Source of the DNA: a virus
Length of the DNA stretch: 21,504 nucleotides
Strand: one strand, 5' to 3'
Virus record (IMG/VR): IMGVR_UViG_3300022200_000624
Coordinates: 1-21,504 of that record
A program made the translations under genes and the position numbers. Under the pieces are notes generated by a model that made no database searches, was not told where the DNA came from, and was given only the letters and a program-made list of their open reading frames with translations. Shown one piece after another: positions 2,653 to 8,888 of the stretch. Position 1 is the first letter of the stretch. Each line of letters opens with the position of its first letter.

Positions 2653-2894
2653 GGGAAAAAGTAGAGGAGTCGTTGTATTCAAAGATGCAACCAACGTGGA
2701 TGCATAGTGAATGTGGACGCTTGGATGCGAGACTAGCGATAGTGGATCCAATGAAGGAGTGCGCTAGACGTTCAAGAAGAAAACGATTCAAGGTAGTTCT
2801 TTACTTTGATGGATCATTTAGCCATCAGTTTTATTTGGATACTATCGAAGATGGACACTATGCTATGCGTAGATACGTGGAGAAAAAGTTATGA
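2649..2894 (+). CDS. Hypothetical 81-aa basic protein
   Basis: ATGA overlap with the previous gene and an AAAGGAG ribosome site just upstream. Residues 40-50 (ARRSRRKRFK) form a strongly basic patch, followed by a beta-like KVVLYFDGSFSHQFYL segment and a basic end. The patch could bind nucleic acid, but no family is recognised. It overlaps the following gene by four bases. Confidence 0.75.
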   Translation: MREKVEESLYSKMQPTWMHSECGRLDARLAIVDPMKECARRSRRKRFKVVLYFDGSFSHQFYLDTIEDGHYAMRRYVEKKL

Positions 2895-3505
2895 GTGTAC
2901 TTACTGATGCACGAGATGCAGTGGGTGGACTAGCTAACCCAAGCAAGGTTCCGTGCAGATCCACATCAACACCAGCGGAGAACTGTCACACTGGTTCCAA
3001 GCTCATGAAGGTGAAGGGGTCTGTGTGTGAGGACTGCTATGCTTGCAAGGGTAACTATGTTTTTCCTAATGTAAAGAAGGCGTTGAAGCGTAGACTTGAT
3101 GCTCTTTCTCATCCTGATTGGGTGGAGAACATGGCGATAGCTATCAACAAAGCGCCATACTTTAGGTGGCATGACTCGGGTGACATCCAAGGTGTGTGGC
3201 ATTTGTCTAACATCGTGGAGGTGGCAAGGCGTACACCTGAGACTAAACACTGGTTGCCTACGCGTGAGGCCAAGTACGTGTCGCAGTACAGTGGTGACAT
3301 TCCGGACAATCTGATTGTGCGTGTGTCTGCTGCGATGGTTGACGGGTCACCACCGAAGAGGTTCAGCTTGACATCAACAGTACACAGGAATAGAATCCCT
3401 ACTGACTCGTTCGTATGCCCCGCACCCAAGCAGGACAACAAGTGTGGTGAGTGTCGAGCGTGTTGGGATAAAGCAGTACCGAACGTAAGTTACACACATC
3501 ATTAG
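2891..3505 (+). CDS. gp88-like cysteine-rich phage protein
   Basis: 204 aa. I associate this pattern with the phage family named gene product 88 (gp88, first annotated in mycobacteriophages and also seen in marine phages), whose biochemical role I do not know. It has nine cysteines in two groups: C22, C32 and C46-x2-C49-x2-C52 near the N-terminus, and C176 with C185-x2-C188-x2-C191 near the C-terminus. A conserved-looking RWHDSGD (92-98) and a PTREAKY (123-129) lie between them. The spacing suggests metal or iron-sulfur binding in which both ends may contribute ligands (inference). It is the largest protein in the small early gene block. The start shares ATGA with the previous stop and has a GGAG site upstream. 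Confidence 0.72.
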   Translation: MSVLTDARDAVGGLANPSKVPCRSTSTPAENCHTGSKLMKVKGSVCEDCYACKGNYVFPNVKKALKRRLDALSHPDWVENMAIAINKAPYFRWHDSGDIQGVWHLSNIVEVARRTPETKHWLPTREAKYVSQYSGDIPDNLIVRVSAAMVDGSPPKRFSLTSTVHRNRIPTDSFVCPAPKQDNKCGECRACWDKAVPNVSYTHH

Positions 3506-3910: not shown

Positions 3911-4269
3911 TTGTTCAATTTGATACAGCGTTACCTGAGTATGCCGCACCGGGAGAGCGTCCTGTCTTGCAGGATCTGGTGCGTATCTGTCTTGAGGACA
4001 ACAACAGAGTGTCCGTATGGGACGGGGAAGAACTGTCTGTGCAGGGATGTAACAACAACCTCAACATCCTGAAGAACTTATCGCAGACTGATATGGATCA
4101 GCTAGAGGTGTACGATAAGGACGGTAACTATCGTGGGTTCTTCTCGTTGATATACAACAACGGATCAGAGCATGAGCCTATGATTGTGATCTCTGATTAC
4201 AGTGCTAACGAGTGGACAGATCGTGTGTACCGCAGGCTCGAGGAAATATACGGAGGATATGAGCTATGA
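3907..4269 (+). CDS. Hypothetical 120-aa acidic protein
   Basis: Starts in an ATGA overlap with the 47-aa gene, with GGAG a few bases upstream. The composition is acidic, with predicted mixed alpha/beta structure: VLQDLVRICLEDNNRVSVWDG, then NLNILKNLSQTD, then a beta-like GFFSLIYNNG and MIVISDYS, and a charged final helix (DRVYRRLEEIYGG). No catalytic motif, metal site or membrane segment stands out. Not recognised. It overlaps the next gene by four bases. Confidence 0.78.
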   Translation: MIVQFDTALPEYAAPGERPVLQDLVRICLEDNNRVSVWDGEELSVQGCNNNLNILKNLSQTDMDQLEVYDKDGNYRGFFSLIYNNGSEHEPMIVISDYSANEWTDRVYRRLEEIYGGYEL

Positions 4270-4484
4270 GTTATTACATCAAACCAGTTGATGAGCTAAG
4301 ACCGGGACGCCTTGCTGTGTACCGTATGGTCAAGAGGCTGCGTGACTTCAAGCCAGAGAACGGTGTTGAATACATGGTGTTCCCAAGTAAGAAGGCAATG
4401 AAGACAGCGTTGTTTATTGACTTGTATTGTGGTAAGAATGGTAAGCTAGTCAAGCTCAAAGACAGATCGATGATGAGGTTCTAA
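4266..4484 (+). CDS. Hypothetical 72-aa basic protein
   Basis: ATGA overlap with the previous gene. The protein is basic (many Lys and Arg), opening MSYYIKPVDELRPGRLAVYR and ending KLVKLKDRSMMRF. A PSKKAMKTALFIDLY helix lies in the middle. Unlike its acidic upstream neighbour it could bind nucleic acid or an acidic partner, but no family is recognised. It ends one base before the sigma-like gene. Confidence 0.75.
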   Translation: MSYYIKPVDELRPGRLAVYRMVKRLRDFKPENGVEYMVFPSKKAMKTALFIDLYCGKNGKLVKLKDRSMMRF

Positions 4485-4485
4485 C

Positions 4486-4680
4486 ATGAGACACGGTATG
4501 ACGTACGCTCAGATCGCTGAGGTGTTGGGTGTGTCAAGCGAAACAGTACGTAACATTGAGCGTAAAGCGTTATGGAAACTGAAGCGGTCAGGTAAGTTGG
4601 ACAGGTTCAAGGACTTATTGGATGCACCTGTCGAGGAGTATTACGGTGAAAACTACAGGAGAATCAAGCATGGAAAATGA
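4486..4680 (+). CDS. Sigma-70 region 4-like helix-turn-helix protein
   Basis: 64 aa. Residues 5-34 (MTYAQIAEVLGVSSETVRNI, then ERKALWKLKR) match the sigma70 region 4.2 pattern: a first helix, a G-V-S-x-E-T-V-R turn and recognition helix, and the E-x-K-A-L-x-K-L-(K/R) end seen in RpoD-type factors. Region 4 contacts the -35 box and the RNA polymerase beta flap. Regions 1, 2 and 3 are absent, so it cannot act as a complete sigma factor. It could compete with host region 4, act as a co-activator, or be a plain transcription regulator such as the reader of the nearby palindromes (inference). The start at 4486 has GAGG about 8 bases upstream. The 3' end overlaps the next gene by 11 bases. Confidence 0.75.
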   Translation: MRHGMTYAQIAEVLGVSSETVRNIERKALWKLKRSGKLDRFKDLLDAPVEEYYGENYRRIKHGK

Positions 4681-5095
4681 TGAGCAAAGACGACTATCGG
4701 TTATAGAAGACTTTGGATTCAGAGACTTAGCACACCTGTGTAAGTTTACAGAGTATCTGTCTGGTGCTAAGTTCATGATTAAAAAGTATGACGATGACAC
4801 TGTTAAGGTTTTGTATACTGATGGTGACAGTGGGACGATGGAGTTTGGATACTCTGAAATATATGACAGGCACGGGTATCAAATGGAATTGATTGCGTGT
4901 AGTTGGTGTGACATAACACCAGAATATATACAAAAAATTAACAGAGTTTTTACTAGACCTGACAAATACCATGATGGTCAGGTGGTCGTGTTTGAAAAAC
5001 CATGCACTACTGTCTCGTGGGATAGTGATGAGTGGAACGAACGTATGATTAATGCGAAAAAAGACCGAGAAAACAGGTTGTCACAGCAGCGCTGA
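4670..5095 (+). CDS. Hypothetical 141-aa protein
   Basis: The ATG at 4670 has AGGAG (4657-4661) 8 bases upstream; an earlier in-frame start inside the previous gene lacks such a site. The protein is acidic to neutral: an N-terminal helical part (RRLSVIEDFGFRDLAHLC), a beta-rich middle (DTVKVLYTDGDSGTMEFGY, MELIACSWCDI) and a charged Lys/Arg/Glu end. Cys at about 84 and 87 region (ACSWC) could be a metal pair, but no partner pair is seen. Not recognised. It is the last gene of the small early block; the next promoter overlaps its 3' end. Confidence 0.78.
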   Translation: MENDEQRRLSVIEDFGFRDLAHLCKFTEYLSGAKFMIKKYDDDTVKVLYTDGDSGTMEFGYSEIYDRHGYQMELIACSWCDITPEYIQKINRVFTRPDKYHDGQVVVFEKPCTTVSWDSDEWNERMINAKKDRENRLSQQR

Positions 5096-5107
5096 GTGTG
5101 CTACAAT
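5078..5107 (+). promoter_or_regulatory. Extended -10 promoter for the replication operon
   Basis: TTGTCA (5078-5083, 5 of 6), an 18-base spacer, then TGC plus TACAAT (5099-5107; -10 box 5 of 6, with the TG of an extended -10). It overlaps the end of the 141-aa gene and points at the replication genes from 5179. Confidence 0.65.
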
Positions 5108-5126
5108 CTCTATATAGATAACTAAG

Positions 5127-5165
5127 TATTACTATTATTAATACTATTACTACTATTACTAATAC
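5127..5165 (+). repeat. TAT/TAC trinucleotide-like tract in the operon leader
   Basis: A 39-base stretch built almost only of ATT, ACT and TAC steps lies between the 5078 promoter and the first gene of the replication operon. It has no G, so the leader RNA would be unstructured, which may help ribosome loading. Replication slippage could also have made it. Confidence 0.6.
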
Positions 5166-5178
5166 ATAGGAACTACAT

Positions 5179-8862: not shown

Positions 8863-8879
8863 TACAATTCTATTTTATG

Positions 8880-8888
8880 TGGTATAAT
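8880..8888 (+). promoter_or_regulatory. Extended -10 promoter in front of the SSB gene
   Basis: TGG directly followed by TATAAT (8883-8888, 6 of 6) makes a full extended -10 in the 61-base gap between polymerase and SSB genes. The -35 is weak (AGTACA at 8861-8866, 16-base spacer, 3 of 6), which extended -10 promoters tolerate. It would give extra transcripts of SSB and the genes after it. Confidence 0.6.

Follow-up and report, generated by a model that had tools for sequence, protein, structure and literature searches.

A stand-alone sigma70 region 4.2-like protein encoded ahead of the replication genes in a mostly marine family of uncultured phages

A 64-residue protein resembling the region 4.2 helix–turn–helix (HTH) of primary sigma factors is encoded at positions 4486–4680 (+) of a 21,504-nucleotide stretch of viral DNA (IMG/VR record IMGVR_UViG_3300022200_000624; hereafter the window), and homologues that keep the same architecture occur in more than 100 viral contigs of IMG/VR. 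The carriers form a family of largely marine phages, none of them cultured, in which an RNA polymerase of the phage's own appears to be missing, and the protein is a good candidate for steering host RNA polymerase between phage gene groups. Our tentatively favoured reading, to which we give a little under an even chance, is that region 4.2 of a primary sigma factor has been turned into a small early regulator of transcription, acting at the −35 step of the host's sigma70 RNA polymerase. How gene expression is ordered in many T7-sized marine phages seemingly devoid of an RNA polymerase is largely an open question; a near-universal sigma fragment lying beside two promoter-like classes makes this question reducible to simple tests and, if the reading is correct, would represent a remarkably small viral use of a sigma domain. 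A literature search returned no paper on this 64-residue protein.

The ORF runs from an ATG to a TGA, extends past the start of the following gene (ATG at 4672) and is preceded by a Shine–Dalgarno-like TGAGG (4474–4478, +). The ORF is a real gene, to judge from the architecture shared by its homologues and from purifying selection on the core, where dN/dS is low (median 0.146 over 816 pairs). The first-pass annotation had described the product as a stand-alone sigma70 region 4-like protein, and this is confirmed by Pfam matches to Sigma70_r4 (E = 1.1e-10; 41.3 bits, cut-off 24.1) and Sigma70_r4_2 (28.1 bits, cut-off 25.7), with the non-sigma HTH families all below their cut-offs (HTH_23, 23.2 against 24.6; HTH_3, 20.1 against 23; GerE, 17.6 against 23.5). 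The region 4.2 HTH sequence also matched Sigma70_r4 in 14 of 14 relatives tested. The E-x-K-A-L-x-K-L motif noted in the same annotation is present as E25-R-K-A-L-W-K-L32. Matches among PDB sequences were mostly to region 4 of RpoD/SigA, including the C-terminal tail RSxKLRDFL, and the profile alignment continues beyond the HTH into the last sigma70 helix with a three-residue gap (KLK---RSGKLdkFld against KLRhpsRSEKLRDFLE). One top PDB entry, the repeat protein 8vd6, aligned through weak single repeats and was discarded as not meaningful. The Sigma70_r4 match covers profile positions 19–49 of 50 and, since it begins at position 19, region 4.1 is missing; this region and all preceding sigma regions are absent from the window and the relatives examined. 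The preceding ORF (4266–4484) ends in ...MMRF, followed by NMRHGMTY, which resembles the end of region 4.1. A frameshift fusion with this ORF was nevertheless rejected because the genes directly upstream differ between relatives, among which no conserved fused or frameshifted extension upstream of the gene was found.

An AlphaFold2 model computed from a 38-sequence alignment predicts helices at residues 7–14, 18–35 and 38–45, with a pLDDT of about 95 over residues 11–40 and low confidence in the tail. The first two helices form the HTH (4504–4590, +), with the recognition helix starting from SETVRNIERKALWKLKR. The C-terminal helix (4597–4620, +) is equated with sigma70 residues 607–613 (L38 = L607 and F41 = F610) by the RpoD/SigA profile alignment, conservation and the model. 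The low-confidence tail contains a conserved YYGE motif (residues 52–55; 4639–4650, +), which is absent from the shortest family forms of 42 residues. The model superimposes on Taq sigma4 over 32 residues at 0.8 Å with E-values short of significance, and LuxR-type HTHs reach similar scores; the best Foldseek hit (E = 0.93) was likewise not significant, and VIA-align gave a tie between SigA and LuxR-type domains. Structure comparison therefore does not separate sigma4 from LuxR-type HTHs, whereas the sequence profile does.

The residues corresponding to the −35 reading positions of Escherichia coli sigma70 (R584, E585, R588 and Q589) are S, E, R and N in the window protein. Some relatives differ at several of them, and L213 retains all four; in the family as a whole their variability is close to that of ordinary surface positions, which argues against one fixed −35 specificity; in some members the recognition helix is almost identical to that of RpoD (SRERVRQIEATALRKLR). 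Within the close group the counterparts of L607 and F610 hardly vary or do not vary at all, F41 itself being invariant, and L42, the counterpart of L611, is kept. The conservation of the C-terminal helix may reflect only its replacement of the missing N-terminal helix in the fold.

The distribution of the gene was assessed by primase-anchored sampling, which avoids the bias of searching with the 64-residue protein itself. Among the 72 close relatives with enough sequence upstream of the primase, 71 carry the gene, 271–923 bp upstream of the primase, as do all 28 newly fetched contigs of a second clade, in which primase identity is about 79%. In the most divergent clade the protein was found in only 29 of 61 contigs, and the replication promoter class described below is missing. 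The single close relative without the HTH gene is L278; in a further contig, L372, an internal deletion (about 530–590), possibly between ATTAGCA repeats, has removed most of it. GenBank phages yielded no close relative at useful similarity, and bacterial genomes none with the pattern used.

The rightward module comprises, in order, primase-helicase, DNA polymerase A, SSB, exonuclease, endonuclease, phosphoesterase and class II ribonucleotide reductase, and the structural genes run leftward. The term early, as applied to the 64-residue protein, derives from where its gene lies, in the rightward module and before the genes for replication. The earlier remark that the phage has no RNA polymerase of its own in view is supported by a 37.6-kb relative, G002, which we consider near complete because a small terminase gene lies at one end, the first early gene at the other and about 590 bp of control region is common to both ends. 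G002 encodes the portal, the major capsid protein and the large terminase, and its only ORF of more than 700 residues is homologous to the virion-like, LysM-bearing protein that the window encodes. No match to PF00940 (T7-type RNA polymerase) was obtained in the relatives, G002 included, although the positive controls T7 and CRP-125 matched. The failure to find a T7-type RNA polymerase, or a second ORF of that size, in G002 supports the premise that this phage group relies on host RNA polymerase. A search of the window against Rfam returned no match. The window also encodes a Gene product 88 family protein (PF17338) at 2891–3505.

Promoters were compared by scanning seven genomes for extended −10 patterns only; the sites are consensus matches supported by conservation rather than mapped promoters. 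Two promoter-like classes are distinguished, mainly by the −35 element. All 12 structural-strand extended −10 sites have TTGAC(A/T) at exactly 17 bp, represented in the window by TTGACT-17-(TATGC)TATAAT (668–696, −), and both early rightward sites have TTGACA at 17 bp, as in TTGACA-17-(TGTGC)GATAAT (1931–1959, +). The replication-module sites carry an extended −10 of the form TGTGnTATAAT without a good −35: none of the 21 (ten downstream of the HTH gene and 11 between the polymerase and SSB genes) has TTGACA, and their −35 matches range from 2 to 5 of 6. In the window these are TTGTCA-18-TACAAT ahead of the primase module (5078–5107, +; extended −10 TGTGCTACAAT), of which relatives keep the extended −10 with a weak or absent −35, and, in the interval from the DNA polymerase gene to the SSB gene, the extended −10-like TGTGGTATAAT (8878–8888, +), which has no good −35. 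The former matches the −35 consensus at 5 of 6 positions (TTGTCA at 18 bp), so that the window is not the cleanest case. Of 92 distinct gene versions, 85 have downstream of them a TGTGnTAnAAT-type site and then CTATATAG, and the −35 match of the site downstream of the HTH gene is slightly above that of shuffled sequence and far below that of the structural promoter.

Several features lie beside these sites. The structural-strand promoter-like site is a near-perfect sigma70 promoter (TTGACW-17-TRTGnTATAAT) family-wide, which would be unusual for late phage genes unless something represses it. Just upstream of it in the window is a tandem repeat of TTTACAGnnCAGATT (740–754 and 762–776), with copies 22–24 bp apart, which is conserved in about 80 IMG/VR contigs and in all seven genomes that extend over this region; in these seven genomes the pair was not found a second time. 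A candidate binder of this repeat is the product of the first gene of the rightward operon (1152–1688), which has no family match and has homologues (28–100% identity) in most relatives covering that region. An AT-rich conserved leader with CTATATAGATAACTAAGTATTA (5108–5170), ahead of the primase module, is a possible regulatory or origin element.

A regulator acting at the −35 step could operate by competition, the sigma4.2 mimic contending with host sigma4.2 either on the polymerase, at the beta flap tip, or on −35-like DNA. The −35-dependent early and structural promoters would then be held down and the extended −10 replication promoters would keep firing, or the reverse would hold later in infection. 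Contact with the beta flap tip helix is made by region 4.2 rather than by region 4.1, and a holoenzyme that lacks region 4 or 4.2 fails at the −10/−35 promoter lacUV5 but is still active, to a lesser degree, where the promoter has an extended −10 (PMC7948647); an argument that the loss of region 4.1 excludes flap contact was accordingly rejected. The T4 activator MotA makes contact with sigma70 at the C-terminal residues F610 and L611 (PMC6755090), and the beta flap tip targets the same residue set, to go by the title of a reference cited therein. The DNA version of the competition is weakened by the variation of the four −35 reading positions without a matching promoter change, and the polymerase version by the chance that the C-terminal helix is conserved for folding alone. 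The fuller proposal, that a mimic of 42–66 residues toggles the −35 dependence of host polymerase with replication and early/structural genes expressed in turn, we regard as unlikely; if true, one tiny sigma fragment would serve as a switch for a group of phages that have no RNA polymerase of their own.

The two genomes lacking the gene point in opposite directions on a link between gene and promoter. In L278, a TTGACA-16-TATAAT site (extended −10 TATGG) occurs at the polymerase–SSB promoter (about 7015), where relatives have no −35, and the polymerase gene ends there in TGA instead of TAG, this stop codon forming part of the −35. In L372 both replication promoters are unchanged, and since no −35 of the L278 type arose there, the promoter difference in L278 is given little weight. 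The case of L372 speaks against the promoter switch, as do the fact that extended −10 promoters need no phage factor, the 5 of 6 −35 match at the first replication promoter of the window and the lack of this promoter class in the divergent clade.

No covariation of the recognition helix with either the promoter −35 region or the tandem element was found, and identical −35 regions accompany different recognition helices in two pairs of contigs (L234 and L017; L242 and L217). A further possibility is that the protein is a repressor or activator of the usual small DNA-binding kind, which has an operator of its own in the phage, is sigma-like by ancestry only and makes no polymerase contact. Small phage HTH proteins are mostly ordinary repressors or activators, a recognition helix that varies is as expected of operator-specific repressors, and the conserved tandem element near the structural-strand promoter suggests that some regulator probably binds there. 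That element, however, stays constant while the recognition helix changes and is thus probably not the operator of the 64-residue protein, and no DNA element changing together with the helix was found; we consider an ordinary regulator possible, if somewhat doubtful.

A role in replication, in which a small DNA-binding protein without a function in transcription marks an origin beside the primase gene, would suit the constant position of the gene in the close group, always upstream of the primase, and its adjoining the AT-rich leader. We judge it improbable, since the closest matches of the protein are sigma factors rather than replication initiators and the adjacent conserved DNA holds a promoter-like extended −10 with the CTATATAG leader. 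In Bacillus, SigO/RsoA is a split sigma factor with a separate region 2 protein, and such systems show just this separation of region 4 from region 2. The search for a partner bears out the earlier statement that region 2 is lacking: Sigma70_r2 had no match in the window and 14 relatives (15 contigs), whereas the controls matched. As the phage promoters moreover carry host-type −10 elements, half of a split sigma factor is a very remote prospect.

Among known systems, the best sequence match of the proposed −35-step regulator is region 4.2 of RpoD/SigA, with which it shares the HTH with its IExxALxKL end, the C-terminal helix and, in some relatives, all four −35 reading residues of RpoD. It differs in having no regions 1, 2, 3 and 4.1, in missing three RpoD residues (the HPS region) before its C-terminal helix and in not conserving the −35 reading residues within the family. 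With neither region 2 nor region 4.1, the protein as predicted is not a sigma70 factor capable of initiation. Its logic may be that of sigma appropriation by T4 AsiA/MotA (PMC6755090), in which a phage factor acts at the sigma4/−35 step of the host enzyme, and a further possible likeness is that the affected promoters lean on −10 and extended −10 elements; AsiA and MotA, however, are not sigma homologues and their binding has been shown, whereas binding by the present protein is a proposal. Xp10 P7 and other binders of the beta flap or sigma4 (PMC3985653) fall in the same small size range, a region 4/flap target being only proposed here; no sequence relation to these binders was seen, and Xp10 has its own single-subunit RNA polymerase. 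AsiA and gp33 also belong with P7 among the flap or sigma4 binders.

Stand-alone region 4-like proteins of other phages are already known, and no described function was found for them; new here are the smaller size, the near-universal presence in the group and the tie to a two-class promoter layout. A 65-codon gene of a Helicobacter prophage, recorded as 'RNA polymerase subunit sigma-70' (BK070047, LS72_008830), encodes a stand-alone region 4.2 from MTFEEIG of nearly the same length, but its tblastn E-value is about 0.3, the phage is of a different type and the record describes no function. The region 4-like proteins of the phage contigs L299 and L300 include region 4.1 as well. A 290-kb phage contig, L297, contains around 5001–5159 a sigma-like 500-codon ORF ending in KLRRSGKVKRLL, the product of which has the same shortened KLRRSGK end as the 64-residue protein family.
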